From the IMG/VR virus record IMGVR_UViG_3300024259_000016, positions 50,060-114,059 of that record: a stretch of 64,000 nucleotides of DNA. One strand, written 5' to 3'. Every line of letters begins with the position of its first letter. Position 1 is the stretch's first letter. The position numbers and the translations under genes were made by a program. Source of the stretch: a virus. Shown piece by piece: positions 13,878 to 30,592 of the stretch. A model generated the notes under the pieces. The model was not told where the DNA came from and did not search any database. It saw only the letters and a list, made by a program, of their open reading frames with translations.

Positions 13878-14435
13878 CTACGGGACGGAGGCGGGAGTCG
13901 CGGCGCTCTCTGCCGGCGCTGGGTCGGGTGTTGGGCACACCGGGCAGACCTTATCCGGGCACTCCAGCAGGCCGGCGAAGAACAGGCACCACGACTGCTC
14001 CATGCTCATGGGGTCGGGCCACTTCTTGAGGCACGCAGCCCCGGCCTTGTCGGCCCCCTTGGCAAGCAGGTCGGCCTTCACTCCCTGGGCGATGTTGGTG
14101 AGCATCGGGCTGGGCCTGAAGCCGTCGCACCCGTTGAGGGTCACCAGGGCGATGAGGACGCCGGCCGCAATGACGAACATACGCACCGACTCACCGAGCT
14201 GGACGTATCCGCCCTCCTTGGACGCGGCGGCGCCGATGGCCGTGGCCGCCCTGATTCGCCCGAAGATTGCGAGGCCTCCGGTGATAGTCATGAGCAGGGT
14301 TTTGAGCCATGCGGGCAGGTAGGGGTCGAGCACGCCGGTCATCTCGTGGGTGGCCCCCTGCGCGATAGTCGCCAGGGCTGCCAGGATGGTGAGACTCAGA
14401 TACCAGGGCTTGGCCCCGTTTGTTTCCTTGGTCAT
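13878..14435 (-). CDS. Holin-like protein with lipoprotein-like C-terminal part
   Basis: 185 residues from MTKETNG; GGAGGAGAA before this ATG decides the start. Hydrophobic segments at about 12-30 and 40-60 and the motif GGLAIFGRIRAATAI resemble small phage holins. A third segment, MFVIAAGVLIALVTLNGC, looks like a lipoprotein signal with an LNGC lipobox, followed by a cysteine-rich, proline-ended tail. This suggests a holin fused to an outer-membrane spanin-like lipoprotein, or an internal start at 14180 yielding the lipoprotein separately. Last gene of the leftward unit. Confidence 0.6.
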   Translation of the reverse strand: MTKETNGAKPWYLSLTILAALATIAQGATHEMTGVLDPYLPAWLKTLLMTITGGLAIFGRIRAATAIGAAASKEGGYVQLGESVRMFVIAAGVLIALVTLNGCDGFRPSPMLTNIAQGVKADLLAKGADKAGAACLKKWPDPMSMEQSWCLFFAGLLECPDKVCPVCPTPDPAPAESAATPASVP

Positions 14436-15247
14436 GATTCTCCTCCTAGTACCTTGCGGCACCATGTTGTCGAACGTGGATTATACAACCCCCAGGGGCA
14501 CCTCTTGCAAGCGGGGATATTGGGCTTGGCTTCGCACTGACGGCGGGACCGGACCAGCAGACGTGCCGCCTCGGCCGCGTTCACGTAGAAGTCCTGCAGC
14601 GCCTCCCTGAAGCGGTCGCCCCCGCGGGTGTGTACATCCAGGGCGCGAACCTGCCAGGGGCCGACGTCTGCCTGCTTGCCGTCTCGGCGCACCACCATGC
14701 GGCACCGACTCTCGGCCTTACATACCTTCCAAAGCAGTCCACGGGGCAGGTCACGGGCTCGCTCTAGGGCACGGATGTAGGCCCGGCGTTCGGACCTCGC
14801 CGCCTCGGCTTCAGCAGGTCTGCACCCCGTCCTGAAGGCGAAGAAGGCCACCGCCGCAACGATCATGAACAACAGGCCCACAGCCCATACTGGCAACAGG
14901 CCCTTGCGTGGTCCGGGGATGACGTCCAGTTCCGCCAGTGCCAGGTCGACTAGGTTGTCCATCATTTCTTCAGTAATACCTGGGGCCTCAACCACCTTCT
15001 CACTGCAACCGTTCGGGCAGATGGCACGGGCGGGCTGACGGCGCGGGTCCCCGCCCTCGTTGCCGCGCACCCGGTCCGGGTCCCAGTAGCGCACCTTGAT
15101 TTGCACAGGGGGCCGCGGTGGCTTGCCGCACCCGCAGGAGAGCTCCACGTCGGCCCATACGGCATAGGTCCCCTTGGTTGGGTCATGCGGGTTCATCTGT
15201 GGCGGGTGGATTTTGTAGACGTGGAGGACTTGAAAGAGAGTGGGCAT
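14432..15247 (-). CDS. Membrane-anchored lytic transglycosylase-like protein
   Basis: 271 residues. A cysteine-containing N-terminal domain (about 1-110: LSCGCGKPP, ICPNGCSEK) precedes one transmembrane segment (VWAVGLLFMIVAAVAFFAF, about 118-136). The C-terminal part has LPRGLLWKVCKAESRCR, which fits the catalytic Glu helix of soluble lytic transglycosylases, then DVGPWQVRALDV and YNPRSTTWC, typical of that fold. It is probably a second wall-degrading enzyme acting outside the inner membrane. It overlaps the holin gene by 4 bases. Confidence 0.65.
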   Translation of the reverse strand: MPTLFQVLHVYKIHPPQMNPHDPTKGTYAVWADVELSCGCGKPPRPPVQIKVRYWDPDRVRGNEGGDPRRQPARAICPNGCSEKVVEAPGITEEMMDNLVDLALAELDVIPGPRKGLLPVWAVGLLFMIVAAVAFFAFRTGCRPAEAEAARSERRAYIRALERARDLPRGLLWKVCKAESRCRMVVRRDGKQADVGPWQVRALDVHTRGGDRFREALQDFYVNAAEAARLLVRSRRQCEAKPNIPACKRCPWGLYNPRSTTWCRKVLGGES

Positions 15248-15678
15248 TATCTGCGCCTGCGCGGCCTGTACTGCCCGCGGCTGTTCTTCTCCACGAGCGC
15301 GTCCATTTTGATGTTCATCTTACTGCGCCACAGATCGGCCTTGTGGCTCTCGTCTTTGATCAACCCTTTTACCTCAGCCACATCGTCCTTGTGATTCTCC
15401 CGGGTGACGTAGGATTCAAGGGCGTTGGTGATGGTCGGGTGGGATTCCTCAATTGGTGGGGCCCTGTGGGCGGTCATCGCTGCGGCGTCTTTCTTCTCCA
15501 CCGCATCATCAAACCACTTCTGCCCAGCGATAAACCAACCCAGGACAAGGACGCCGCTGAACAGGAGCGACCCCAGGAGTTTGATTGTTACCTGTTGTCC
15601 ATAGAACCCAGGTCCGGGTGTGGGGGGAAGTGGCTGGGCGTTTACCTGACTAACTTCTTCCATTTCGTCCTTCTCCAT
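15247..15678 (-). CDS. Single-span membrane protein, spanin-like
   Basis: 143 residues with a proline-rich start, one transmembrane helix (LLGSLLFSGVLVLGWFIAG, about 34-52), then a charged, probably coiled-coil domain and a very basic end (YRPRRRR). The layout fits an inner-membrane spanin, and it abuts the transglycosylase and holin genes. No direct motif proves it. Confidence 0.5.
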   Translation of the reverse strand: MEKDEMEEVSQVNAQPLPPTPGPGFYGQQVTIKLLGSLLFSGVLVLGWFIAGQKWFDDAVEKKDAAAMTAHRAPPIEESHPTITNALESYVTRENHKDDVAEVKGLIKDESHKADLWRSKMNIKMDALVEKNSRGQYRPRRRR

Positions 15679-15981: not shown

Positions 15982-17244
15982 CTACAGATTGGCCAGATAC
16001 AGACCGCGAGTCTCGCAGGTCACGGTTCCTGACCCGGTCGCGTTCAGGCACTTGAAGATTACCGACGGATTGATGTTCATGTCTGCCACGGCGACGGTCT
16101 TGGCCGTGGTGTGGACAGCCCACCCGGTAGCCCCTGGAAGCCCAGGATTAGAGCCGGCTGCGTTTCCTGAGTAGAATGCCTTAACCACTCCAGAGATTGG
16201 GTCGTAAATCATTCCAATCCAGAATGAATCATCGATGGTCGCGTTGGATAGCGTTGTGGTGTCCCCGTTCTCGGTGATAGTAAGCTTCCACGCGCCACCA
16301 GTCCGCTCCTGGAGAACGCCGACGTATTTGGCGAGACCGACAGGGGCAACGTACATCGCGAAGTATGTATCGTTTGCTGATCCGAGTTGCGTGACGTGGC
16401 ACCAGCACGCAACGGGCCGCGTTGGGATGGATAGTTGCAATTCAGGTGCCGCCGCTGCTCCGTGAGTATGCGCCCATGTGTACTTGGAACCGTCGGCGGT
16501 GATGGTGTAGCCGCTGCCAACCTGCTGAGTCCATGCCGTGACGATCGGGTTGGCGGTGCAGTCGTCGGAGATGCCCTGTTTGGCTACGCCGCCGTCCAGG
16601 ATGATTGTGCCCTGGTCGGTGTTGAACGGGGCGGCGGGGGCCTGAACCGCCGTGTCCGCCGTGGCCCCCTGCGCAGCCGTAGCGAAAAACCCCTCGCTCC
16701 TCAACGCAGCGTTGCCGAGTGCCACGGCTGCCACCCCCCCGGCGGAAGTTTTCAGGTATCCGGACAGCCCCGTGGTATCGATCTTGTCGTGCAGCACACC
16801 CTCGGCGAGTTGGCCGGTTCCGTCCAGGGAGGCGTACCCGCCGGCAGCACCCTTGTTGGCCGTGTCTTCGATGACCCCAGTTGTGCCATGGGTAGTAGTG
16901 AGTGCAGCATGGACCGAGACGGCGTTGGCCAACTCAGCCGCTGTTGTCACCGTGACCCCGATGATCGCTTCGAGCTTGCCCTCTGAATTGAGATCAGCGG
17001 TAGTCAGGAAAGCGGCAATCGCTGCGCCCAGTTCCGCTGTGGAGGTGAGGGTGACACCAGTGATCGCCTCAAGCTTGCCCTCTGTGTCTAGATCTGTACT
17101 TTGGAGGTACGGGATCAAGGCAGCCACCAGCTCGGCGTTGGAGGCCATGGCCTCACCAACAGCTGTCTCGAGTTGTGCCTGAGAAGTGATGGTTGTCCCC
17201 CCACCCCCTCTGCCCCTGCTGAATCCGCCATCGTAATCGGCCAT
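15982..17244 (-). CDS. Tail fibre or receptor-binding protein with lectin-like C-terminus
   Basis: 420 residues. After a glycine-rich start, two repeats of about 35 residues occur (TEGKLEAITGVTLTSTAELG, then SEGKLEAIIGVTVTTAAELA), as in fibre shafts. The middle (AAGGYASLDGTGQLAEGVL) is a common fibre linker. Residues about 210-420 are beta-rich and resemble a concanavalin/LamG-like domain, comparable to the C-terminus of 55104-56906. GGGAGATTCTG precedes the ATG. It would bind the host surface. Confidence 0.75.
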   Translation of the reverse strand: MADYDGGFSRGRGGGGTTITSQAQLETAVGEAMASNAELVAALIPYLQSTDLDTEGKLEAITGVTLTSTAELGAAIAAFLTTADLNSEGKLEAIIGVTVTTAAELANAVSVHAALTTTHGTTGVIEDTANKGAAGGYASLDGTGQLAEGVLHDKIDTTGLSGYLKTSAGGVAAVALGNAALRSEGFFATAAQGATADTAVQAPAAPFNTDQGTIILDGGVAKQGISDDCTANPIVTAWTQQVGSGYTITADGSKYTWAHTHGAAAAPELQLSIPTRPVACWCHVTQLGSANDTYFAMYVAPVGLAKYVGVLQERTGGAWKLTITENGDTTTLSNATIDDSFWIGMIYDPISGVVKAFYSGNAAGSNPGLPGATGWAVHTTAKTVAVADMNINPSVIFKCLNATGSGTVTCETRGLYLANL

Positions 17245-17743: not shown

Positions 17744-17763
17744 GGTGTGCCAGAATGTGTCAG
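17744..17763 (-). promoter_or_regulatory. CTGACA plus CTGGCAC element before the fibre and lysis genes
   Basis: On the minus strand CTGACA starts at 17763 and CTGGCACACC at 17753, 10 bp later, matching the spacing seen at 6005, 10801 and 29238. It lies in the 128-bp gap 17632-17759 between the methyltransferase and fibre genes, so the fibre-lysis genes may have their own promoter. Confidence 0.5.
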
Positions 17764-18335
17764 GCAGCAGGTTTGTGGGCCATCAGGTTCAAGGAGATGT
17801 TTTCCTGGCAGGCATAATCTTGACCCTGCCAGATCGCAGGAATGGATACTGCGTCCCAGGTTTGTATGTCGATGAAGTCTGCTTGGAGGAGGACCTTGGC
17901 TAGTTTCTCCCTTGTGAAGCACCACTTGTGACGGTCCCAGTCAGGGGTTGTGGATAGGCAAGGCCCAAACAAGGGATAGTCAGGCTCCGGGCCAAAGTAT
18001 TCCGGGTCTTCAGGGGAGGTGAGAACACAGCCCAGGAGGACCTTCCTGAGATCAGGGACAGCAAGCCTGAGGATCCCCCCGGGGATCAAGGCCTGTCGTA
18101 GTTTGACCAGCAGAGCCGGAGCCAGATCCGGATATACATGCTCGAGGACATGACTCATGTAGATCTCAGAGAAGTGCCCGAGGGGTAGGTCATCAGCCAT
18201 GATGTCCACTGCGAATCCTGCAGGGGACTGGCTGAGTCGTCCATCCGTATTGGTATATCCGACCAGGTCTTTACCCCCGCACCCGAGCTGGAGCTTGCTG
18301 CCCCGGAGAACCTGATTGAGTCTCGACGGAGGCAT
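17760..18335 (-). CDS. Class I SAM-dependent methyltransferase
   Basis: 191 residues. KLQLGCGGKDLVGYTNTD at about 15-32 is the AdoMet-binding motif I with its acidic strand end. YMSHVLEHVYP and LRQALIPGGILRLAVPDL fit the motif II/III region of the Methyltransf_11 group. Its position in a glycosyltransferase cassette suggests a sugar or small-molecule substrate. It overlaps the upstream methyltransferase by one base. Confidence 0.8.
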   Translation of the reverse strand: MPPSRLNQVLRGSKLQLGCGGKDLVGYTNTDGRLSQSPAGFAVDIMADDLPLGHFSEIYMSHVLEHVYPDLAPALLVKLRQALIPGGILRLAVPDLRKVLLGCVLTSPEDPEYFGPEPDYPLFGPCLSTTPDWDRHKWCFTREKLAKVLLQADFIDIQTWDAVSIPAIWQGQDYACQENISLNLMAHKPAA

Positions 18336-19291
18336 TACCGTTGGGGGATGCGCTGGTGCATGACGTCGAGAATGTCTGTTCGGGCGAAGCCGGCAGCTCC
18401 TGATGCGACGAGGGAGGGGACTTTGTCCTCAGCGGAACCGATGAACCAGCCGCGGCCGTCAAGTAGGTCCATCTGCTGGCAGTTTTTGAATCCGACCTCC
18501 TGCATGATCTGAAGCCAGGTGTTGCCGGTCGGGATCCACCAGTTCCAACCTACCTGGGAGGGCCCCCGGTACTGAGCGTGGGGGTAGAACTTGTCAGGCA
18601 GGGTCATCGTCTCGAACAACAGCACCCCGCCTGGGCGGAGCATGAGACGGAGGATGGCCAGGGCGCACGCTGGGTCTGAGCAGTGGTAAAGCACTCCCGG
18701 ACAGTAGATGACGTCGTAGGTGGCCGACGGGTCCAGCAGGGATGCCTTGGGCATGTCGTACAGGCTGCAGCCGTAGACATTGTCACCCCGGATAGAAAAG
18801 ACCTCCTTGTGGCGTTTGGACCAGCTTGCAAAAACCGGGACCTCTTCGACCACATCGACTTCAGCCGCCCCGAAGCCATCGAGGAGCATGACCTCGTAGC
18901 CGCACCAGGCCCCCACTACGCAGCATCTATGGCCCTGGGACAGGGCACGTAGGTCAATCCCGGTCTCTCTGAGCCTGGCCGCATTCAAGAGTCCCCGGGT
19001 GTGACGGGCACCGGCCGCACCTTGGGGGCCCATGGCGCCGATTACCTGAAGGCCTTCTCCGTAGTCATGGTCCTGGTCCCAGGCGTAGCAGTCCAGGGCC
19101 GTTCCCTGGTTAGCCGCCCAGGTCTTGACCCATACATCGGTTGGGTTCTGGTCCACGAAGTCAGAGACTTCCTGTTTGAAAGCTTGGGCTTGTGCATCAC
19201 CGTGTAAGTCCCGGATCCGCTGCAGGGAATACCCCCCCATGATCTCCTGCTCGATGGCCACTCCTACTTCGTTCAGACTTCCTTGTCTCAT
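18335..19291 (-). CDS. SAM-dependent methyltransferase
   Basis: 318 residues. The N-terminal 110 residues are helical and unknown. GHRCCVVGAWCGYEVMLLDG occupies the motif I position, though it differs from the usual GxGxG. YDVIYCPGVLYHCSDPACAL and LRPGGVLLFETMTL are typical of class I methyltransferases of the CmoB/Methyltransf_31 kind. GYEVMLLDG and AAEVDVVEEV resemble the sugar-methylating relatives. Substrate unknown; cassette context suggests a glycan. Confidence 0.75.
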   Translation of the reverse strand: MRQGSLNEVGVAIEQEIMGGYSLQRIRDLHGDAQAQAFKQEVSDFVDQNPTDVWVKTWAANQGTALDCYAWDQDHDYGEGLQVIGAMGPQGAAGARHTRGLLNAARLRETGIDLRALSQGHRCCVVGAWCGYEVMLLDGFGAAEVDVVEEVPVFASWSKRHKEVFSIRGDNVYGCSLYDMPKASLLDPSATYDVIYCPGVLYHCSDPACALAILRLMLRPGGVLLFETMTLPDKFYPHAQYRGPSQVGWNWWIPTGNTWLQIMQEVGFKNCQQMDLLDGRGWFIGSAEDKVPSLVASGAAGFARTDILDVMHQRIPQR

Positions 19292-19317
19292 TGCCTTGCT
19301 CCTCGATTATGGAGTTG

Positions 19318-20061
19318 TCAGTTCTTGATCCAAAAAACAGGTCCCCCACCTTCGGGGATCGGGATGATCTCTGGGTCCTCTTGCCGTATCTCGAGGTATT
19401 CCTCGATGGCCTTACGACAGCCCCGCAATGCGTAGTCGTCGATGATGACAATCCCACCAGACTGGACCAAGTCGATGAGGGGCCAACACGCCTTGGTTGA
19501 CTCATACAGATCTCCATCAAGCCTGAGCAGGGCGATCTGACGAATTGGGGGGTGGCCGATTTTATCCCCCGAGTGGATGGCCTCACGTATGGTTTGCTGA
19601 AACCACCCCTCGTACAGTGTGAATATCTGGGCAGGCATCCCCCTGGCCTCGAGGTTTTGATGCACCGCCGCCGCAGAGCATGCGCTGATACCAGAAGTCA
19701 CAAGGGCGCCATCCTTGCCATGGGAGAACAAGGTGTTGTCAATGTTGTCTGTGTCTTCCGGTCCCGCATGAGGGATCCCTTCGAAGCTGTCAAGCAGGTG
19801 AAAGTGGTGCTGAGGACTCGGTCCGGCTCCGGCGCCGCGCCACATGGCGATGACCTGTCCACCTGCGAACACACCGCACTCCACGATGTCACCAGCAATA
19901 CGGTGAGCAGCAACATGCCGGGCCAGTGCCCAGGAGGATAAGAGGGTGGGTCTGGTAGACAGACACAGGGGGCCGACGTTGGAGATGAGCCAGTTCTGTT
20001 CCTCCTCAGGAGGCCAGTTGTCAGAGAGGATCGAGGGCAGCTCTTTTGAATTAGAATTCAT
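19318..20061 (-). CDS. TylF/MycF-like macrocin O-methyltransferase
   Basis: About 247 residues from MNSNSKEL (AAGG 7 bases ahead; an alternative ATG at 20082 has no close ribosome site). The blocks GDIVECGVFAGGQ, HLLDSFEGIP, LLRLDGDLYESTK and GGIVIIDDYALRGCRKAI are signatures of the TylF family, which O-methylates sugars in antibiotics and surface glycans; the aspartates bind metal. It overlaps the sulfotransferase gene by 11 bases. Confidence 0.85.
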   Translation of the reverse strand: MNSNSKELPSILSDNWPPEEEQNWLISNVGPLCLSTRPTLLSSWALARHVAAHRIAGDIVECGVFAGGQVIAMWRGAGAGPSPQHHFHLLDSFEGIPHAGPEDTDNIDNTLFSHGKDGALVTSGISACSAAAVHQNLEARGMPAQIFTLYEGWFQQTIREAIHSGDKIGHPPIRQIALLRLDGDLYESTKACWPLIDLVQSGGIVIIDDYALRGCRKAIEEYLEIRQEDPEIIPIPEGGGPVFWIKN

Positions 20062-20638
20062 AGTTTGCCTTGAGAAGTTCATCCCCAAAGAGTTCCTCCA
20101 CACGAAGGATCATCTTCGGTTCAGTGTAATAAGACCGATACCCTGGTCGACGGGTGGACCTATTAATATGGGGGAGGGCAGGCATGTCGGTACCAGCCAG
20201 CTCACAAAATGCCTTCAGGTCATTGGCGAGGATTTCAAATCGGAGAATTTTGTCAACGATGCAGGTCCCTTGCACATCCATGAGGAATTCGTGCATGTGC
20301 AATGGGCGACTGGTTGTACTCCCTGTTGATTCTGGTTCAGACAGCCAATGGGTTGGGCATCCATGGGTGACCCAGGCTTCAAAAGAGAGATGCTGATAGA
20401 TGTGGGGCGCAATGTTGGCACCCCGGCAAAAGTGGTAGAAAGAGACCAGTCGGTCGAAGGGGTTACGGATGATCGAGAAGGACAAGCCTTCTCTCCAGGT
20501 TTTCTCCCCAACCCTGTCGCGTATGGTCCGTGCTGGGAGATGATTGTGAGTTTCATCTACCAGACCTTGAAATGCTTGATAGATGCTTCGTGTCCCGGTC
20601 CTGGGGATGGAGACGAAGAACAGTTTTGGAGGACTCAT
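20051..20638 (-). CDS. Sulfotransferase
   Basis: About 195 residues from MSPPKLFFV. FFVSIPRTGTRSIYQAF is the 5'-phosphosulfate loop (PxTGT) that binds PAPS, and SIIRNPFDRLVSFYHF is the 3'-phosphate motif (RxP...S). Together they identify a sulfotransferase of the kind that sulfates carbohydrates. The host must supply PAPS. It lies between glycosyltransferase and methyltransferase genes on the same strand. Confidence 0.85.
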   Translation of the reverse strand: MSPPKLFFVSIPRTGTRSIYQAFQGLVDETHNHLPARTIRDRVGEKTWREGLSFSIIRNPFDRLVSFYHFCRGANIAPHIYQHLSFEAWVTHGCPTHWLSEPESTGSTTSRPLHMHEFLMDVQGTCIVDKILRFEILANDLKAFCELAGTDMPALPHINRSTRRPGYRSYYTEPKMILRVEELFGDELLKANYEF

Positions 20639-20642
20639 ATTA

Positions 20643-21356
20643 TCAGATTCCTCTGATGTGCCACTGTCGAATGTCGTCCTGTGGGGTCGGGTAGGTTGAG
20701 CCATAGAGGAACGTGTTGGGAGGCAGGGGTTTGAGGCCCAGACGCTTGGCGAGTACTGTCATCGCAGGCATGTCATGGCGGTGACCTTGTACTCTCTCGT
20801 CGTCGCTGACAAAGCCCTGGGCCTTTCGCCAGGGCCCACACACTACTTCCGGATTCTGCATCATTTCACACATGCCCTTCAGGAAGGCATTCCCTGATGG
20901 ATGGCTGGGGTTAACCCCCCAGATTCCGCCAGCGACGATAGGCTCAGCCATAGCCTGTTCTCGAGTCCAACCAAAAACCTTGAGTGCCCGGTCACTCGTC
21001 CAGTGCCCCATACAGCCACTCTCCTGGACAAGATAGACTCCGGTGCGTTCCAGCTCCCTAAAGACGGGCTCCAACGACCTACCTGGCCAGACGGAGGAAT
21101 CCAGCCAGATGACCCCTGCTGGGGCCACATCTTTGTTTGCTTGGATAATGGTGGCAGCCTGATCTACGGCATAGGTTTTGAAGGCGTAAGGGAGTTGCTG
21201 GTGTGGGGGACAACCTGCGGGGAGAGTGTGTCTCCAGAGCATTTTCATGCCTCGGTAGTCCACACGGTCAAGTTCGAGACTCAACCGAGACACACCTGAA
21301 GCGTAGTTGCCGTTAACACCAATAGAGATGATGGCTCGATGACTGGGGGGAATCAT
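20643..21356 (-). CDS. Glycosyltransferase-like protein
   Basis: 237 residues. It opens MIPPSHRAIISIGVNGNYASG with a strand-loop as in GT-A enzymes. GVIWLDSSVWPGRSLEPVF occupies the position of the DxD-type metal site but as D-S-S, and WGVNPSHPSGNAFLKGM resembles the acceptor side of such folds. It probably adds a sugar using a nucleotide-sugar donor. It sits 6 bases downstream of the large glycosyltransferase. The fold assignment is by pattern only. Confidence 0.55.
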   Translation of the reverse strand: MIPPSHRAIISIGVNGNYASGVSRLSLELDRVDYRGMKMLWRHTLPAGCPPHQQLPYAFKTYAVDQAATIIQANKDVAPAGVIWLDSSVWPGRSLEPVFRELERTGVYLVQESGCMGHWTSDRALKVFGWTREQAMAEPIVAGGIWGVNPSHPSGNAFLKGMCEMMQNPEVVCGPWRKAQGFVSDDERVQGHRHDMPAMTVLAKRLGLKPLPPNTFLYGSTYPTPQDDIRQWHIRGI

Positions 21357-21362
21357 TAGTGT

Positions 21363-24300
21363 CTACTCCCTACCAAGGATGGTAGTTCCACGGTGATGGC
21401 GAACGATGGCGAGGAACATCTCTACGACAGCCTCCCAGGACCACCAACGATAGGCCAGAGCTTTTACGTCTCTGCGCATCTGCTCCTTGAGTTTGTCCAT
21501 CTCTGGATCCTGTCCGGGGGGCTTGGCCCATGTTTTGGCCAGGGCCAGAAGTTCGGAAGGCGTCCCCCAACACAAGGCATGCTTTCCGTCGACAATTCCC
21601 CAATGCTCTTGTCCCTTGAACCGTTGCAAGGCGATGCATGCACTGGCCGCCCCAAGTCTATTGAGGCGGTCCGAACTGTAAGCCGTTAGGTCCGGGGTAA
21701 TCGAGGCGTTCACACTCAGGGCCGCAAGGTTGTAGACTGCGGGACAAGCTGCTCGGGGAATTGAGCCGAGTGTTTGGTCTGGTGTCCAACCGCTGCCGAA
21801 GATGAAGATGCCCTGCGGGTCGTGATTGAAAAGGGCTTCGATGCTGGACGTTCGAAGGTCGTAGTCGTAGGTTCTGGACCCGATGAAAACCGACGACCCT
21901 TGGAGTACTTCTTGGCTGACCTTCATCGGGATTCGATCTGGATCTGTCTGGTCATCGATCCCGATGTCGTAACCCACCTGGAGGTACCCGGGATGAGGGA
22001 CTTCGTGCTGGGCAAGCATACGGCAGTAATCGATGTTGCTCTGGAGGCATAGGTCTGCGGCGCGGCCCGTGTCCAACATCCAACGGGTTGGCCGGGGATA
22101 CCATTCCTGTCGAACATCCCCATTCCATGTTGCGATGACAGCTCCTGGGGCGCACAACTTTCTGAGCTGCTGGATGAACTCCGCTGTCCCCAGGAATCCT
22201 TCATCGTCCTGAATCTGGTACCAGACCAATGTAGGCCGCAGCTGTCGTGCAGCCTCGAAGATCGCCTGAGCCCGAACCTTTGGGCCAGCTGCTGCAAGGT
22301 CTCCACGAAGCCGAAGAACCTCTACTGTTTTGCCTATACGGCCGAAGGCCTCACGTAGGCCGATCTGGAGCTCAGCCTCGTGGGCCAGGGGTAGAAGTAG
22401 GAGTCGCTCTTCAGGCCCTGCCGGAATAGGAGAACGCCTGGGCATCTTCCCTGGCTCCGGGACGAGAAGTCGGGGCCACCAATCCCCCGGTGGGGTTGCG
22501 TCCAGGCGGGTAACCAGTCTGTCCAAAGAACCATCCCCATGTTTGGGGCCATACGCTCTGACGTTCTTTCGTCGGAGTCCGTCAGGAACCTGGTGGTCGA
22601 TAGCCCGGATCTCCCCGGGAAAGTATTGTGCCCGACGTCCAGCTTTGACCAGTGCAGCTCCCTGCAAGGTGTCACCGGCGTATGTCCTATCGATACGATA
22701 TTGACTGTCCCCCCAGAAACCTCCGATGAGCGTGGCCACATCCTCCAAGGCATTCCGTCTGGTCAAGGCGATATTGGGGTGGGCCGACTCGTTGAGGATC
22801 GACCTGAGTGCACCGGTGTGGTGGGGGGCAATCCAGTTGTCCCCCCCATCCGTTGAAAACTCGAAGCATACCTGGTCCAAACCTGGATCTTGGTCCAGAC
22901 GATCTACTGCCTTACGTAGGGACCCCGGGACCAACTCCACATCGTCATTGGCTTGGAATACGTACTGCCCACAGCTTGCCTCGTAGGCGAGATTGAAGGC
23001 ATCAATAGCCCCGGTCAATCCGCCGTGGACCACCCTGCAATCAGGTTGTTCTTTGAGCCATTCCAGAGTCCCATCTGTACTGCCTCCGTCACTCAGGATG
23101 AACTCAAATGGGCATGGGTCCATAACCTTGAAGTCTGCCCGGATGCTCCGTACCATACGCTTGAGGCTCTCCAGCCTGTTATATGTCCCGGAGATGACGG
23201 AGATCCGGACAGGTCCTGGCTGGGTCGGTCCTTTGAAGATGAAGGGGAGGTGGGCCTGAGGGACACGTCCATCACCATCGAGAAAACCTGTGTACTCTTG
23301 CCGTCTCCTGAGTTGATCACGCTCCGTCAGAAGCTTACGCATCAATTCTGAATCTTCTGGGCTGCGACTCGGAACCTGATTTACCACAACAGGGATAGTT
23401 GCAGATCCTTCGGGGGCCGAAGGGGGGGGAACATGGTGGTGCGCTGGGCTCCCCCGGTGGGCTGCTATTCGAAGCGCCTCACCAAGACACTCCCGCCAGT
23501 TCGACATGACATGGTGCCAGGTCCATTTATTACGGATGGCTGCCGCGGCCCGGTCCGCCATGTCCTGCAGCTCTTGACGCGGCCTGCGCCTGAGGTCCTC
23601 GATGACCGCACACAGATGGTCGACGGTCCGTTCAGGGAGCAAACGGCCGAAGTCCTCATTGATGGCCAGCTGGGCTGAGCCCACCTTGGTGGAGGTAGGG
23701 ATGCAACCGCAGGACATACCCTCGAAGATCGGGAAGGGGCCCCCTCCCTCTCCCTTGGACATACAGACGATGACCCCGATCTGGTTGTAGAACTCGGGCA
23801 TCTTGTAATGAGGCCAGGCTTGTTGTCCAGGCTGGGCGGTTGAGCTGTCGAGGATTGCGTGGGGGACCTTACAACGTTCGACTGCCTCCCGAAACATCCC
23901 TAGTCCCTTGTAGTCCTCCATGCCACCGACGGCTGGATTCATCCGTTGGCTGTTGCCCGTCCACCCGAAGACCAGGTCCCCTTTTGGTAGGGGGGTCTGG
24001 GCAAACAGGTCCGGATTGACACCGTTTGGAGTCACGATGATTGGGGGGAGGGCCTGCCCCTTGGCGAGCCTGACGATGTCATCCCGGACCATCTCGTTCC
24101 CGACTGCCAGGATGTCTGTGCAGCGCAACGTAGCCAAGAACTTGGGGCTGAGTCTCCCATTCGGGCCAAGGAAACTCATATGGTCGTCCACGCAAGACAC
24201 CACGGCACCGGGTCGCATAACCGATTTGAGCCTGGGGGTATCGAAGTGCCACAACGAGATCAGGACGCTGTCTGGTTCCACCCTCTTGTCCATGTCTCGG

Positions 24301-24410
24301 CCGAGACAGATGTTCACTCCATCCACCATGTCCTGAAAGCCCCTGCACATCTCCCGGGCCTTGGCATGGAATACAGAATCAGGCAGATCGATGGTGAGGT
24401 AGGCTTTCAT
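21363..24410 (-). CDS. Three-domain glycosyltransferase
   Basis: 1015 residues. About 1-310 is a GT-B/GT4-like domain (VTPNGVNPDLF; GGGPFPIFEGMSCGCIPTST in the donor-binding region). About 400-650 is a GT2-like GT-A domain (RISVISGTYNRLESLKRMV, ILSDGGSTDGTLEWL, ANDDVEL as the metal site). About 700-1010 resembles CgeB-like GT-B proteins (WNGDVRQEWYPRPT, SSVFIGSRTYDY, LGAASACIAL). One polypeptide could add several sugars in series, cytoplasmically. No signal or membrane segment is visible. First enzyme of the cassette, 60 bases after the 120-aa gene. Confidence 0.85.
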   Translation of the reverse strand: MKAYLTIDLPDSVFHAKAREMCRGFQDMVDGVNICLGRDMDKRVEPDSVLISLWHFDTPRLKSVMRPGAVVSCVDDHMSFLGPNGRLSPKFLATLRCTDILAVGNEMVRDDIVRLAKGQALPPIIVTPNGVNPDLFAQTPLPKGDLVFGWTGNSQRMNPAVGGMEDYKGLGMFREAVERCKVPHAILDSSTAQPGQQAWPHYKMPEFYNQIGVIVCMSKGEGGGPFPIFEGMSCGCIPTSTKVGSAQLAINEDFGRLLPERTVDHLCAVIEDLRRRPRQELQDMADRAAAAIRNKWTWHHVMSNWRECLGEALRIAAHRGSPAHHHVPPPSAPEGSATIPVVVNQVPSRSPEDSELMRKLLTERDQLRRRQEYTGFLDGDGRVPQAHLPFIFKGPTQPGPVRISVISGTYNRLESLKRMVRSIRADFKVMDPCPFEFILSDGGSTDGTLEWLKEQPDCRVVHGGLTGAIDAFNLAYEASCGQYVFQANDDVELVPGSLRKAVDRLDQDPGLDQVCFEFSTDGGDNWIAPHHTGALRSILNESAHPNIALTRRNALEDVATLIGGFWGDSQYRIDRTYAGDTLQGAALVKAGRRAQYFPGEIRAIDHQVPDGLRRKNVRAYGPKHGDGSLDRLVTRLDATPPGDWWPRLLVPEPGKMPRRSPIPAGPEERLLLLPLAHEAELQIGLREAFGRIGKTVEVLRLRGDLAAAGPKVRAQAIFEAARQLRPTLVWYQIQDDEGFLGTAEFIQQLRKLCAPGAVIATWNGDVRQEWYPRPTRWMLDTGRAADLCLQSNIDYCRMLAQHEVPHPGYLQVGYDIGIDDQTDPDRIPMKVSQEVLQGSSVFIGSRTYDYDLRTSSIEALFNHDPQGIFIFGSGWTPDQTLGSIPRAACPAVYNLAALSVNASITPDLTAYSSDRLNRLGAASACIALQRFKGQEHWGIVDGKHALCWGTPSELLALAKTWAKPPGQDPEMDKLKEQMRRDVKALAYRWWSWEAVVEMFLAIVRHHRGTTILGRE

Positions 24411-24471
24411 TATAGGATGCTCCGGAACTCTGAGGGGGGATTAAACTGAGGGAGTGTTCGGGTGCTGAAGT

Positions 24472-24834
24472 TTACGGAGCGGGAGTGGCTGTGAAGTTGG
24501 CCACACCGTGTGCACCACCGGCCGAGTCGTACTGGATGAGGATCATGTCGCCGTTGTGCTGATCCTGGATCTGGAACTCGTCGACCTGCAGGCCCTCGGT
24601 GGCGGAAAACTTCATGTAGGGACCCTCGCCGTAGTACTCGCCCGGCCCGGCAACCGCGGCGTGAGAGCCGAGGTTCAGGGTGTCGGTGTCGATGATCGCC
24701 AGGATCGCATTGACCGCGGTGCGGATGGTGTTGAAGCGACTGACCAACGAACCAGGGTAACGGCCGGTGAAGATCAGCGCCCCCTTGTTGAAGGCGTTGT
24801 TTGCAAGCAGGGGAAGCGGGGTAATGGCGCCCAT
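24472..24834 (-). CDS. Probable abundant virion protein, 120 aa
   Basis: Starts MGAITPLPLLANNAFNKGAL after AAAGGAGAACCTACATC. Mixed helix then beta (MKFSATEGLQVDEFQIQD, GDMILIQYDSAGGAHGV). By eye its codon use (strong C/G third positions) resembles the major capsid, scaffold and tube genes rather than the adjacent enzymes, suggesting high expression. It sits at the head of the glycan cassette with a structured leader. A decoration or fibre-like role, even as the glycosylated target, is inference. Confidence 0.55.
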   Translation of the reverse strand: MGAITPLPLLANNAFNKGALIFTGRYPGSLVSRFNTIRTAVNAILAIIDTDTLNLGSHAAVAGPGEYYGEGPYMKFSATEGLQVDEFQIQDQHNGDMILIQYDSAGGAHGVANFTATPAP

Positions 24835-25239: not shown

Positions 25240-25356
25240 AACTGGGCTTGAACGGTAGCAAGCAAGTCGGTGAGAGTCAACAGAGTTTGCGGGGGTACTG
25301 ACGATTCTGTGACACGGGGTTGCCGGGGGGGATTTGTGGTGGTAACGTGGCTGGTC

Positions 25357-27267
25357 ATGAGGGATCTCAAAGACCGAATCAGTACGGCACGTGGGGGCAA
25401 GCAGGCGGTGTCCCCAGATGGTGCAACAGGGATGCCCAGCGGGACCCGAGAGGTTAGTGCCGGGGATATGGATGCCGGGGTCGCGGAGGAGTCTGGGCCC
25501 CCCGTCAACATCCAGCGGGTAGGAATGCAGACTTCAGCAATGGAACCTGCTGAGACTGCAGAGCCGGCGGAATGGTATGGCTCCTACGCTGACGGACGCC
25601 GCTACATCTCCCCCATCCAGTCCGACACTGATGCCGATCTGCTCATCCGGAACTCCTGGGTAATTTCCGGTGTGATCTCGGCCTACCTGGACAATGTGTA
25701 TGGGCGGCGCCCCTATGCAGTGCCCAAGGCTGACCCGATGACCCCGGAGGGTAAGCAGACCATTCGGCAGTGGATGCGGATGCAACGAGTCAAGGCCGGG
25801 AGCACCGATAAGTCCTGGCTCGACATCAAGGATTCTGCCCTCGACAAGGTGTGTAGGCAGATCGATGCACGAGTAGAGCTGGAGTCTGCCCTGGTCGACG
25901 GGTTTTTTGCGACTTGTCAGGTGGACCTCCCATACGATCAGATGGCCTCCTTGGCCGGCTACGATCTCGAGGTGAGAGGGCGTACCTTCTTGGAAGTCCT
26001 GCGGGATGCTCCTGGTGGCAAGCCTGTTGGGATGGTGTGGTCCCCTGCCCGTTTCATCAGAGTTGAGCCCCCAAGCCCTGCGGTCGGGTTCTCTGATCTG
26101 ATGGTCCACAACCCATTGGTTTACGAGAAGAACTTCAGGTTTCGTAGGTTCGTAGGGTGCTTCCAGTCTGCAAGCGCCAATGCTGTGAGTCCGGTGGCCT
26201 TCTTTAAGGACTTTGGTGACCCGCGGGTGCGTAGTCGCAGTGATGGACGATACTACGAGACCATGGACCAGCTGCTTGCCCGAGAAATGGGGGAGGAAGT
26301 TGGGGGGTACGGGGGAAACAAGCAGCGCCGCTGGCCTGTCGGGACACCATCCACTGAGATCGTCCGGATGGTGCATACGGCGCCCTGGGCTGCCCTGACG
26401 GGGATGGCCCCTTGGTACTCCACCAAGACAGAGCTCCTCGGGATCCGAGAGTGCGCCCAGGAGAATCGGGGCTTGCTGTCGGGCCAGTTGGTCCCTCTGC
26501 TCCTCTGGATGATCCACGGGGGGCAGCGCATCACCCCGGACCAGACAGAGCTGTGGCAAAAGGATTTGCAGGCTGCTGTCAAGCCTGGCGAACGTTCGGT
26601 CGTCATCATGCAGGTCATGTCCGACGCAATGGCTCGAGCAGGCAGTCGGGGGGCTGGGGAGCCCAAATCATCCATTGTCAACACCCGGCCGGCTCAGCAG
26701 GAAGATGCCCTGGCCATGAAGTACACCGAGCAGAGCTACCGGACTGCTCTTCGGGCCTACCGGATGAACCGGGCAGCCCTCGGGGATTTCGAGGGGATGA
26801 CCCAGCAGGAAATCCAGGAGGCCCTTCGGTATACTGAAACGCAGGTCTATGGTCCTCGTGGTGAGTCCTGGTGTGCCGGATTGCAACCTATTGTGGATGA
26901 CCTGGGTTTGTTGGCTACTCGACTCGAGCGGCCAACCCGGGCTTCTCTGGCCTTGGGGGAGTTGTCTGAGATCCTCGAGCGGTTGGGGAAAGAGAACTTT
27001 ATTACCCCTGAACAGGCCTGGCCTACGGTACGCCGAGCCATGAAGGATCTGGGGAGGATTGTCCAGGACAAGGGGCAGTGGAGTAAGTATCCCCGGCGGG
27101 TTGTTGACGGATTCATGATGGCTCGTGTCCCGCAGGCCGCGGGTAAGTTCATGGGTTTGGATGCCAAGTACATGCCTCCTATTGAGGCCACCGACAAGAT
27201 GGACGGGAACAATAAGGGTCCGGTTGTACCGGCTCCGGCACCTGTGGAGGACCCCGAAGATGAGTAA
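25357..27267 (+). CDS. Portal protein
   Basis: About 636 residues from MRDLKDRIS; several upstream GTGs in frame make the start uncertain. VAFFKDFGDPRVRSRSDG, TEIVRMVHTAPWAALTGMAPW and GIRECAQENRGLLSGQ follow the PBSX/SPP1-type portal pattern (clip and stem region). Portals form the dodecameric DNA channel at one capsid vertex. It heads the rightward head-gene order and overlaps the next gene by 8 bases. The charged proline-rich tail (VVPAPAPVEDPEDE) is unusual. Confidence 0.8.
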   Translation: MRDLKDRISTARGGKQAVSPDGATGMPSGTREVSAGDMDAGVAEESGPPVNIQRVGMQTSAMEPAETAEPAEWYGSYADGRRYISPIQSDTDADLLIRNSWVISGVISAYLDNVYGRRPYAVPKADPMTPEGKQTIRQWMRMQRVKAGSTDKSWLDIKDSALDKVCRQIDARVELESALVDGFFATCQVDLPYDQMASLAGYDLEVRGRTFLEVLRDAPGGKPVGMVWSPARFIRVEPPSPAVGFSDLMVHNPLVYEKNFRFRRFVGCFQSASANAVSPVAFFKDFGDPRVRSRSDGRYYETMDQLLAREMGEEVGGYGGNKQRRWPVGTPSTEIVRMVHTAPWAALTGMAPWYSTKTELLGIRECAQENRGLLSGQLVPLLLWMIHGGQRITPDQTELWQKDLQAAVKPGERSVVIMQVMSDAMARAGSRGAGEPKSSIVNTRPAQQEDALAMKYTEQSYRTALRAYRMNRAALGDFEGMTQQEIQEALRYTETQVYGPRGESWCAGLQPIVDDLGLLATRLERPTRASLALGELSEILERLGKENFITPEQAWPTVRRAMKDLGRIVQDKGQWSKYPRRVVDGFMMARVPQAAGKFMGLDAKYMPPIEATDKMDGNNKGPVVPAPAPVEDPEDE

Positions 27268-27829
27268 ACTTTCCAAGATGGAGCAGGGCAAGCGGCTTCT
27301 TACCTCCATGCACGGACAACGGCAGATGTATGAAGCCCGAGAGCGGGAAATGCTCCGGCGGGCTGTCATTGATATTGGAGTCCCCCCAGTCGTTCGTGAA
27401 CTAGTGGCCTGCAATGCCGACAAGGGTCCTCTGATCATGACGACGATTGCGAAAACTGTCCGTCGGGCCATGGAAGACCCCAGGACACGGCCCCTGTTTC
27501 CAACCGATGCAGCTTTCAAGGATCGTCTGGAGATCGTGTACGACTGTCTAACCCGTATTTGCGGGGACGGACATGCCCCAATCAAGCTCGCTGCGGACCG
27601 TCTATGGGACATGGTTCTGGCACGGATGGCGGGAGGTGGGCACCCAGACGACATCGCTGAGCAGCAGGTCACCACGAAGGGGGGGGCAGACATCACAGGA
27701 GATGAAGTCACCGACGGTACGTTGGCTCGGGCTTGGGGGAAGAGTGAAGGGGAGGGGGTAGGTATCGCCCGACTGGGGGCCAAGGACATGGTTGACTTTC
27801 GTGACCAGCCGTCTGGACAGGAGGAGTAG
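27260..27829 (+). CDS. Hypothetical head-region protein, 189 aa
   Basis: Starts MSKLSKMEQGKRLLTSMHG, overlapping the portal stop by 8 bases. Helical body (VVRELVACNADKGPLIMTTIAK), then a low-complexity acidic/glycine tail. Its place between portal and protease suggests a role in head assembly, but no family is recognised. Confidence 0.6.
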   Translation: MSKLSKMEQGKRLLTSMHGQRQMYEAREREMLRRAVIDIGVPPVVRELVACNADKGPLIMTTIAKTVRRAMEDPRTRPLFPTDAAFKDRLEIVYDCLTRICGDGHAPIKLAADRLWDMVLARMAGGGHPDDIAEQQVTTKGGADITGDEVTDGTLARAWGKSEGEGVGIARLGAKDMVDFRDQPSGQEE

Positions 27830-29218
27830 ATGCCGCTGTTTCCGAAAGCTGAAGCTGTAGATCCCTATGAGGACCGAGAGGACGTAATCTGTCGGGCAGC
27901 CTGGGTTGTAGCCGAGGCCATCAGCGAAGGCCTTCGTGAGGGGCCCGGTCGGGACCCTTCTGGCTGGGCTGCGTCCAACCGGGACAGGATTCTTGGGGCG
28001 TATCGCGAACTTCATGCCATGTTTGGTCGGGCCTCCAATCTCGCCGACCGAGTGATTGCAGCGGAGAAGGCCTTCGTTATGGCTTTGGACCTTCTCAAGG
28101 TCAAGACTCGCTACAACGACAAGTTGTCCGAGGCCGCGGGGATCGGGGTTGCAGAGGGATGGGGGGACGACCTTGCCCCGAATGAGGCTGCACAGGCGTG
28201 CATAGAGGCGCGCGCCCTGGCCCCAGACTGCATCATGATCAGTCCAGGGGACCTGGAACTGGCTGCCCGCATTGGCTCTGAAGGAGGCCAGCCTGAGCCG
28301 GTTCAGGTCCATACGACAACCGCAGCCTCCGGGATCGTAGGGACCTCCATGCTTCAGGCCTTGCTCCCGCCCGGGCTGGTGAGTCCTGTCCCCCTGCTAC
28401 CTGGAGCGGGAGATGTACGGGGCATTGAGGACATCCCCTCGATGGTTGCTGGCCTACCTGTCTACGACCTAGCCCTGGTGCGCGAGGGGCTGCTGCAGCA
28501 GTCCGGAATCGGGTCTTGGGATGTTCAAAGGTATCGGGCGGGCAAGGCTGTTCCACAGGTTTCCTTTCTGAACTACAAGCCCGGGCAGACGGTGGCCGGC
28601 GCCAAAGAGGCGGGGCTGCAGCCGGTGGAGTTCACGGTCCCGTTCGAGGTGGTGGGTTGTGGGGCTGGTGCCCTGGCGACAGATGCTGAAAGTCGTGCCC
28701 GGGTGGAGCAAGTCCTGCAACGGTTCTCTGGGATGAAGAAGGCCGGGGACAAGCACGATCCTCGGGGGACCATCCCCTTCGACATGGACGGGGACTTCCC
28801 CCTCCACCAGATCGTGACCGGTGAGGTCCTCAAGCCGGACACCCCTGATCGGAGCACTTCGTATGATGAGGTGACCGGGGAGAAGCTGTCCGACCATGAC
28901 ATCTACGATGACCCGACGATTCTGTTGTCGATGTTCTGGTGGATGGCCAACGCCAAGAGCCGTGTGACCTTTCTGCACACCGAGGATGGTGGCAAGGATG
29001 TCTCGGTGGATGTTCCTGTTCTGGCATGTTGGCAGCAGAGTCCCGATCGGACTTATGTTCGGGACGACAAGTCGGAGAAGATTGTCAAAGCGGGCACCTG
29101 GATGCTCACTGTCTGGGTCAAGTCCAAGCCTATCTGGAAGCTGATCCTGGACAAGAAGATCAAGGGTTTCTCGATCGGCTACATCGCCATGGGGCGCATC
29201 GAACAAGCAGCTGCCTGA
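27830..29218 (+). CDS. Prohead protease of XkdF type with long N-terminal extension
   Basis: 462 residues, ATG directly after the previous TAG. Residues about 365-460 (FWWMANAKSRVTFLHTEDG, GTWMLTVWVKSKPIWKLI, DKKIKGFSIGYIAMGRI) match the XkdF putative prohead-protease domain, where KxxIKGFSIG is the most recognisable block. About 330 residues precede it and are unknown, beginning with a helical region. It would process capsid, scaffold or portal during maturation. Confidence 0.65.
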   Translation: MPLFPKAEAVDPYEDREDVICRAAWVVAEAISEGLREGPGRDPSGWAASNRDRILGAYRELHAMFGRASNLADRVIAAEKAFVMALDLLKVKTRYNDKLSEAAGIGVAEGWGDDLAPNEAAQACIEARALAPDCIMISPGDLELAARIGSEGGQPEPVQVHTTTAASGIVGTSMLQALLPPGLVSPVPLLPGAGDVRGIEDIPSMVAGLPVYDLALVREGLLQQSGIGSWDVQRYRAGKAVPQVSFLNYKPGQTVAGAKEAGLQPVEFTVPFEVVGCGAGALATDAESRARVEQVLQRFSGMKKAGDKHDPRGTIPFDMDGDFPLHQIVTGEVLKPDTPDRSTSYDEVTGEKLSDHDIYDDPTILLSMFWWMANAKSRVTFLHTEDGGKDVSVDVPVLACWQQSPDRTYVRDDKSEKIVKAGTWMLTVWVKSKPIWKLILDKKIKGFSIGYIAMGRIEQAAA

Positions 29219-29237
29219 TCTGCTGGACTGAGCCAGT

Positions 29238-29265
29238 CTGACGCATCTGTGCCAGATTGTGCCAG
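29238..29265 (+). promoter_or_regulatory. CTGACG plus two GTGCCAG half-sites
   Basis: CTGACG at 29238, GTGCCAG at 29249 and 29259, in the 97-bp gap before the scaffold gene. Same layout as the other GTGCCAC/GTGGCAC elements. It could start the scaffold-capsid transcript. Confidence 0.5.
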
Positions 29266-29315
29266 ATGGGGGTTGCCAAGTGTAGGGTGATGGGGCATTC
29301 TGCGGATCAAAGCCT

Positions 29316-30503
29316 ATGCCCCGTGTATCCTTCATAATGGGTCTCAAAGAAAGACTCCGCCGCCTGTTCTGGATTCGTTCCTACGAAGTGGCGATGGTCC
29401 CGGATGCCGCCAATGCCGAAGAAGAAGGTGAATTCTTCGTTGAGGCAATCAAGCGCGCCGGGACTGGGGGGGACCAGGACATGCCCCATCCCGACCTGAT
29501 GATCCGCTTGGGCCAGGCCCTGCTCGCTGCGGGACGTGGAGTCAAGGGATTCCAAGCCGGACAGGTAGGGGATGGGATCGAGGGCCTGGACGGAATGAGC
29601 AAGGTTGTAGAACAAGCTCTGGTCCAGGCCGGAGAGATCCTCGACGAAATGTTGGGGGCTAAAGAGGACGGCCAGGCGCAGGTCCTGCAGGTCAAAGACC
29701 TGATCGAGGGCCTCAAGACGCAGGCCATGATGGTCCAGGGACAGGCCCCGGCCACAAGTAAAGCCATGATCGAAGGCTGCGATACCTTGTATGATACCCT
29801 GGGGCTCGACGATACTGACGAGACACCTGGAAAGAAAGATAAAGGAGACGAGCCCATGAAGAAGGGAACCATCAAGATCGTGGCCAAGGGTGAAAAGGCC
29901 CTGGCTGGCAAGCTGAGCTTCGACGGCACCGAGCTGGAGGTCCAGATCGCTGAGGGTGCCAAGGAGTTCATCCTGCAGGACATCGAGCCGGGCGACCACA
30001 AGGTGGAGCTGGTGGACGGTGAGACCAAGATGGCCGCCGACGTGAAGGTCGAAGAGGGTGTCGAGGCGATCGTTGAGGTCGGCGAAGAGCCCGGGACCAA
30101 GACCGACAGCGACAAGCTGGACGAGCTGCTGGGTCTGGCCAAGACCCAGGGCGAGCGCCTGGATGTCCTCGAGGCCGACGTCAAGAAGATCAAGGAGCCC
30201 AAGGCTGAGGAAGGGGCTGGCGCCGGGGGTGTGGAGACCATCAAGGTTGACGACGTCAAGAAGATGATTCAGGAGACGGTGGGAGAGATCATGGAGACTG
30301 CCGGCAAGAAGTCCGCCGCGGTTCAGATGGTGTCTGTGCCGGCCACCATCCCGGTCATCGAGGACAAGAAGGGCGCTGAGGGCGGCGAGGGTGATGACGC
30401 CACCAAGGAGATCGAGGGGAAGAAGAACTCCTCGGCCCACGACCACAACCTCAGCAACAGCCCCCGCCTGAAAGCGATCCGCGAACAGGGCGGCGTCCTG
30501 TAA
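29316..30503 (+). CDS. Head scaffold-type protein, long form
   Basis: 395 residues. The N-terminus (ERLRRLFWIRSYEVAMVPDAA) reads like the start of prohead-maturation proteins. The body is acidic and helical with coiled-coil potential (ERLDVLEADVKKIKEPKAEE) and ends HNLSNSPRLKAIREQGGVL, typical of scaffolds placed just before the capsid gene. The start may instead be ATG 29337; neither has a good ribosome site. An in-frame ATG at 29856 with a near-perfect site defines a nested short form. Confidence 0.65.
   Translation: MPRVSFIMGLKERLRRLFWIRSYEVAMVPDAANAEEEGEFFVEAIKRAGTGGDQDMPHPDLMIRLGQALLAAGRGVKGFQAGQVGDGIEGLDGMSKVVEQALVQAGEILDEMLGAKEDGQAQVLQVKDLIEGLKTQAMMVQGQAPATSKAMIEGCDTLYDTLGLDDTDETPGKKDKGDEPMKKGTIKIVAKGEKALAGKLSFDGTELEVQIAEGAKEFILQDIEPGDHKVELVDGETKMAADVKVEEGVEAIVEVGEEPGTKTDSDKLDELLGLAKTQGERLDVLEADVKKIKEPKAEEGAGAGGVETIKVDDVKKMIQETVGEIMETAGKKSAAVQMVSVPATIPVIEDKKGAEGGEGDDATKEIEGKKNSSAHDHNLSNSPRLKAIREQGGVL
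29856..30503 (+). CDS. Nested short scaffold from internal start
   Basis: In-frame ATG at 29856 preceded by AAAGGAGACGAGCCC, the best ribosome site in the area. It would give a 215-residue protein (MKKGTIKIVAKGEKALAGK...). Codon use becomes strongly C/G-ending from this point on, unlike the preceding 540 bases. Nested scaffolds sharing the C-terminus of a longer protein are known in lambda (Nu3 within C). Residues 1-80 look beta-rich, the rest coiled coil. Confidence 0.65.
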   Translation: MKKGTIKIVAKGEKALAGKLSFDGTELEVQIAEGAKEFILQDIEPGDHKVELVDGETKMAADVKVEEGVEAIVEVGEEPGTKTDSDKLDELLGLAKTQGERLDVLEADVKKIKEPKAEEGAGAGGVETIKVDDVKKMIQETVGEIMETAGKKSAAVQMVSVPATIPVIEDKKGAEGGEGDDATKEIEGKKNSSAHDHNLSNSPRLKAIREQGGVL

Positions 30504-30510
30504 CGAAGAG

Positions 30511-30540
30511 CCCCCTCCGGTTTTACTACTGCCCGGGGGG
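30511..30540 (+). terminator. GC-rich hairpin between scaffold and capsid genes
   Basis: CCCC(T)CCGG pairs with CCGGGGGG around an 11-12 base loop. Only TTG follows, so it is more likely an RNA stability or partial termination element than a full terminator. Confidence 0.35.
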
Positions 30541-30592
30541 TTGAACGGAATCATCAGTCGGCCGGTCTGACGGCCAAAAGGAGAGAACCAAT

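Follow-up and report, generated by a model that had tools for sequence, protein, structure and literature searches.

Six consecutive leftward genes, most of them apparently for glycan synthesis and decoration, lie within the virion gene region of a phage, and the question that this locus raises is what the set makes and on which acceptor it acts. We analyzed a stretch of 64,000 nucleotides (the window), which covers positions 50060-114059 of the 114,059-bp virus record IMGVR_UViG_3300024259_000016 and carries the six tightly packed minus-strand open reading frames (ORFs) at 17760-24410. An earlier reading of the letters alone (the sequence-only reading) had placed six such genes here, and the ORFs agreed with it. 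Homology indicates that the glycan cassette is real and well-formed, with families assigned to a multidomain glycosyltransferase (GT3), a sulfotransferase, a TylF-type methyltransferase and a further methyltransferase (MT2); with four of six genes placed by homology, the proposal that the set could build a methylated, sulfated glycan gained support. The best explanation, which we hold with evenly divided confidence, is a glycosylation pathway, late and cytoplasmic, whose targets are one or more virion proteins of the phage itself.

In the order of transcription, the genes encode GT3, an orphan of 237 amino acids (aa), the sulfotransferase, TylF, MT2 and a small methyltransferase (MT1), and the gaps between consecutive genes are 6, 4, -11, 26 and -1 nt. 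Because the spacing is short or negative and starts and stops are coupled, the cassette was treated as one operon. Improved start codons were assigned to the sulfotransferase (20638) and TylF (20061). Two other contigs contain the cassette region at 100% identity, which indicates that the cassette is not an assembly error; one of them ends inside the fibre-like/orphan end. Searched with GT3, the portal, the orphan, the capsid protein and a large gene of the early region, the viral contigs yielded the same phage only and no sister phages.

We identified an N-terminal GT-B domain in GT3 at about residues 120-305 (PF13524, 2.7e-7; PF13692) and a central GT2 (GT-A) domain at residues 404-566 (PF00535, 3e-17). 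A C-terminal GT-B-like domain at about residues 870-970 was weak, reaching an E-value of 0.039 with the C-terminal fragment alone; that is, two of the three domains claimed for this protein were recovered by Pfam and the third is tentative. No relatives of GT3 were found outside this phage in the viral-contig scan. The next gene had been read as a second glycosyltransferase-like protein, a claim that found no support: its product matched no glycosyltransferase family, and in Pfam, PHROGs, PDB, INPHARED and the viral and bacterial contig scans it matched nothing except the same phage. Its single-sequence AlphaFold prediction was uninterpretable and too poor for a fold search (predicted local distance difference test, pLDDT, 33).

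The sulfotransferase scored above the family cut-off (PF03567, 2.3e-6, 28.4 bits against 22) and matched phrog_3347 (3e-11). It contains a 5'-phosphosulfate-binding (5'-PSB) motif, IPRTGTRSIYQAF, and a 3'-phosphate-binding (3'-PB) motif, RNPFDRLVSFY, both common to other viral sulfotransferases. Three other viral proteins with these motifs were 27-30% identical to it; across the four proteins the RNP..R..S columns of the 3'-PB motif were invariant and a 5'-PSB-like motif was present. Family score and motifs together point to a carbohydrate sulfotransferase (Sulfotransfer_2) dependent on 3'-phosphoadenosine 5'-phosphosulfate (PAPS), as the sequence-only reading had named it.

The same reading had proposed a TylF-like sugar O-methyltransferase, and this assignment was borne out by PF05711 (2.7e-28, 99 bits against a cut-off of 23). 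In PDB, the protein matched 4cdz/5i10 with 62 bits and NovP (2wk1) with 59 bits, and the acidic metal-site motifs LDGDLY and IDDY were kept in alignment with solved TylF-family structures (MycE, NovP and relatives); family score and motifs indicate a sugar O-methyltransferase of this family. A bacterial scan returned a single TylF relative, which came from an Ignavibacteria metagenome-assembled genome and was 33% identical. As for the two additional methyltransferases that had been suggested, MT2 is by its family matches securely a class I enzyme, with a CmoB-like match in PDB, whereas MT1 scored under the curated cut-off of PF13489 and is a probable member of the same class.

Gene composition was compared with a baseline of 36 reference genes. 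GC content at third codon positions (GC3) was slightly low in the cassette genes except MT2. The sulfotransferase was a clear outlier and ranked with the most atypical of the tested genes in codon use (z of -2.4 for GC3 and -2.1 for codon use; GC3 of 0.54 against 0.71), followed by the orphan (-1.4 and -1.5), while MT2, TylF, MT1 and GT3 lay within about one standard deviation (SD). The GC content of the cassette was 57.3%, against 59.6%. This pattern is suggestive of acquisition followed by partial adaptation.

Clear membrane segments were absent from the six cassette proteins. We also screened about 120 further predicted proteins of the phage against Pfam; gene calling for these was crude and may have missed small genes, and the screen returned no flippase, GtrA, initiating lipid-phosphate transferase or sugar-nucleotide synthesis family; PAPS synthesis genes were not found in the phage either. 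Since no membrane, flippase, lipid-initiating or sugar-nucleotide genes were found, what remains is a cytoplasmic pathway supplied with host nucleotide sugars, S-adenosylmethionine (SAM) and PAPS, and a virion protein would be the likeliest acceptor because the surroundings are of a late type. We postulate that GT3 would add two or three successive sugars from host nucleotide sugars to a virion protein, for which the fibre-like protein, the product of 24472-24834 and the capsid are candidates. TylF and one or both of the other methyltransferases would place methyl caps, drawn from SAM, on hydroxyls, and host PAPS would supply the sulfate that the sulfotransferase attaches; the particle would thus bear a charged glycan capped with methyl groups. 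Here we infer the order of sugars, the acceptor, the timing and the benefit, which may be shielding, altered adhesion or stability; late expression is suggested by the gene neighbours. Sulfation, the part of this scheme with the greatest interest, is also the one least proven.

Table 1. Cassette genes and neighbouring features, with positions in the window.
Feature	Position	Strand	Basis
GT3, multidomain glycosyltransferase, 1015 aa	21363-24410	-	PF13524/PF13692 and PF00535
Orphan, 237 aa	20643-21356	-	No match outside this phage
Predicted carbohydrate-type PAPS sulfotransferase, 195 aa	20051-20638	-	PF03567, phrog_3347
Predicted TylF/NovP/MycE-family sugar O-methyltransferase, 247 aa	19318-20061	-	PF05711; overlaps the sulfotransferase stop
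MT2, class I SAM methyltransferase, 318 aa	18335-19291	-	PF13489 6e-10, PF08003 1.6e-6
MT1, probable small class I methyltransferase, 191 aa	17760-18335	-	PF13489 0.0012; phrog_6636 methyltransferase 0.007
Orphan just upstream of the cassette, candidate acceptor, 120 aa	24472-24834	-	Codon bias and Shine-Dalgarno
Orphan directly downstream of the cassette, 122 aa	17263-17631	-	ORF only
Fibre-like repeat protein, 420 aa, candidate acceptor	15982-17244	-	Sequence repeats
Three membrane/lysis-type genes, cassette orientation	13878-15678	-	Hydrophobic segments; one weakly SLT-lysozyme-like (SLT_3, E 0.0068)
Divergent head module	25270-31543	+	Portal, XkdF-type protease, major capsid protein
Portal	25270-27267	+	Weak similarity to Agrobacterium phage JP1
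XkdF-type protease	27830-29218	+	Peptidase_S78_2 match, right-arm Pfam screen
Major capsid protein	30593-31543	+	phrog_1623 3.8e-31; 41 INPHARED records, many annotated as major capsid protein

By its families across the whole record (gp19-type tail tube, Baseplate_J, baseplate-V and tape measure), the phage is contractile-tailed. The cassette belongs to a leftward block of one orientation, from 25239 to 13878, which contains two small orphans, the six genes, another orphan, the fibre-like gene and the membrane/lysozyme-type genes, and no terminator-like site was found on the cassette strand in the two gaps that flank it. Upstream, a probable abundant virion protein had been proposed. The gene at 24472-24834 shows a GC3 of 0.82, codon usage like that of the tube and sheath and a strong Shine-Dalgarno sequence, features which suggest high expression of its product; the virion assignment is less firm, as homologue searches gave none and its single-sequence structure prediction (pLDDT 36) was too poor for a fold search. 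This product is distinct from the major capsid protein, whose gene lies in the head module. The fibre genes proposed downstream are represented by the repeat-rich protein, whose fibre call comes without a family match in Pfam or PHROGs.

The capsid protein shared about 24% identity with its counterparts in Vibrio, Pseudomonas, Stenotrophomonas and Rhodobacter phages. In the INPHARED Pseudomonas phages BHU-1, BHU-15 and BHU-17 (H27, H31 and H33), a gene of the capsid family bears the label 'methyltransferase type 11', apparently a misannotation. Elsewhere in the structural region, the start of the ORF at 35885-36898 resembles an IPT/TIG domain (phrog_16236; TIG match in the right-arm screen). 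In other parts of the same phage, a protein with an SGGKDS motif (L005:3779-4819, about 23779-24819 of the record) is probably the PF01507 PAPS-reductase-domain match of the left-arm screen, a helicase-type gene (L004:15784-17838) appears to bear an intein, judging by matches to HINT and to Intein_splicing, the latter found in two left-arm proteins, and the early region encodes a B12-binding radical SAM protein (L005:12461-13705).

We then compared the cassette with gene groupings in other viruses. Among the viral contigs scanned, the exact six-gene set occurred in this phage only. The TylF scan gave 58 other loci; in 39 TylF-bearing records tested, GT2 was also present in 22 and a sulfotransferase in 4. 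The sulfotransferase had at least 311 relatives; among 50 tested records bearing one, GT2 was present in 23, within 5 kb of the sulfotransferase in 12, and TylF was present in 5. These counts describe recurrence and not enrichment, because the loci were picked for carrying a sulfotransferase or TylF. Groupings of glycosyltransferases, methyltransferases and sulfotransferases recurred in five contigs (L041, L083, L084, L101 and L107), and in two of these the neighbours are fibre or terminase/portal genes. L083 encodes a methyltransferase-bearing protein and a sulfotransferase right before a collagen-like tail fibre, and in L084, GT-B, GT2 and sulfotransferase genes lie shortly before the terminase and portal; both sets have fewer genes than the cassette and no TylF. 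Sulfotransferases are grouped with methyltransferases in L101 and L107. L041 (IMGVR_UViG_3300033142_000702) has a sulfotransferase immediately before TylF in a run of glycosyltransferase-like and methyltransferase-like genes, but its set is larger (about 14 genes, including epimerase-like and nucleotidyltransferase-like ones), lacks a three-domain glycosyltransferase and lies outside any structural block. In phage JP1, a single glycosyltransferase is annotated upstream of the terminase. Separately, another viral contig (L108:4402-10594) carries several genes with sulfotransferase-like motifs, one of them family-matched, plus glycosyltransferase-like genes. We offer as a tentative and somewhat doubtful extension that a sulfated, methylated oligosaccharide, made by means of the fused multidomain glycosyltransferase on the phage's own particle, mimics extracellular polysaccharide and that the cassette is part of a wider, unnamed class of glycosyltransferase/methyltransferase/sulfotransferase cassettes beside fibre or head genes.

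The sequence-only reading had preferred decoration of the phage's own particle from its adjacency to structural genes. The head-module, fibre and lysis context, the lack of export genes among those screened and the parallels in L083 and L084 agree with this preference, whereas the acceptor and the product of the cassette enzymes are only predicted. Several further points weigh against it. The precursors must come from the host, as no genes for sugar-nucleotide or PAPS synthesis were found; enzymes in the cytoplasm might just as well act on lipid-linked precursors of the host; and L041 indicates that some viral glycan cassettes lie away from structural genes. In addition, the head regions of phages with distantly related capsids lack annotated genes of this kind, indicating that the trait is not tied to capsid type. 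Bacterial surface-glycan loci contain GT2, TylF, class I methyltransferase and sulfotransferase families, the same families as the cassette, and the enzymes might instead extend or cap host lipopolysaccharide, capsule or lipid-linked oligosaccharide, thereby blocking superinfection or the adsorption of progeny to debris. L041, whose larger set lies apart from structural genes and includes epimerase-like and nucleotidyltransferase-like members, fits such alteration of the host surface, and chlorovirus infection alters the host surface through viral polysaccharide enzymes (PMC7019647). However, neither the cassette nor the screened proteins included a flippase, polymerase, GtrA or membrane-bound transferase, and placement in a block with fibre and lysis-type genes suggests late expression, when superinfection exclusion would be less useful; we consider this explanation, the main rival, rather unlikely. 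Gtr-type serotype conversion by a GtrA flippase, GtrB and a membrane Gtr transferase was weighed and set low, as the screened proteins included no GtrA family and the six cassette proteins no clear membrane segment.

The codon use of the sulfotransferase, the lower GC content of the cassette and the lack of relatives of GT3 and the orphan elsewhere in the scanned viral contigs would suit a recently captured fragment of a bacterial surface-glycan locus with little function in the phage. Such passenger cargo is improbable, given six intact and tightly coupled frames, a distance of at most 1.6 SD from the codon use of the phage in the remaining cassette genes and identity in three contigs. Phage glycosyltransferases that hypermodify DNA are also known (Pyle 2024, cited in PMC12619734), and the cassette could glycosylate modified bases and decorate them further. 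A cluster of this kind would be expected to pair a base hydroxymethylase or TET-type gene with the glycosyltransferases; the screened proteins, from which crude gene prediction may have dropped a gene, included no thymidylate-synthase-like hydroxymethylase or TET/JBP family. The cassette also lies outside the replication region, and solved TylF relatives act on small-molecule sugars. DNA or nucleotide hypermodification is accordingly very improbable.

Decoration of virion proteins has precedents. In mycobacteriophages (Che8, Corndog and Myrna), phage glycosyltransferases glycosylate capsid and tail-tube proteins, and the accessible portions of these sources (PMC12363180, PMC12619734) mention no sulfotransferase or TylF; the present phage resembles them in encoding glycosyltransferases, here by homology, but differs in lineage, and its cassette is predicted from genes alone. 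For Rhodococcus phages, virion glycosylation has likewise been suggested from a glycosyltransferase and a methyltransferase (PMC13313380). The nearest functional parallel is chlorovirus PBCV-1, in which multidomain enzymes, A111/114R with three glycosyltransferase activities and A064R with a glycosyltransferase-glycosyltransferase-methyltransferase arrangement, act on capsid glycans and build a methylated capsid N-glycan (PMC7826918); the glycosyltransferases of its pathway likewise lack endoplasmic reticulum signal peptides (PMC7019647). This likeness is one of function, and PBCV-1 is a eukaryotic virus whose pathway has no sulfate. Mimivirus-group clusters (such as those of Moumouvirus australiensis and Tupanvirus) similarly bring together multidomain glycosyltransferases, methyltransferases and sulfate-metabolism enzymes and are thought to make decorated fibril glycans; unlike the cassette, they include sugar-nucleotide synthesis and belong to viruses of eukaryotic hosts, and the review does not name a sulfotransferase (PMC9614988). 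The combination had been put forward as undescribed, a claim that holds in part. We found no description of a phage cassette joining glycosyltransferases, methyltransferases and a sulfotransferase, although the literature covered included few subscription papers and this result is weak evidence of novelty. Self-glycosylation of phages and giant viruses, multidomain viral glycosyltransferases and methylated and predicted sulfated viral glycans have all been described. Sulfation and the multidomain glycosyltransferase fusion are distinctive, and glycosylation by viral enzymes is itself already known.

If the phage does decorate its own virion proteins, self-glycosylation of phages would extend to charged, sulfated, methyl-capped glycans and to a lineage outside the mycobacteriophages. 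The surface chemistry of the particle would then be a trait that phages can evolve, and one that bears on adsorption, stability and recognition. Since over 300 viral proteins are related to the sulfotransferase, the question is probably a general one that could be tested in cultured phages.

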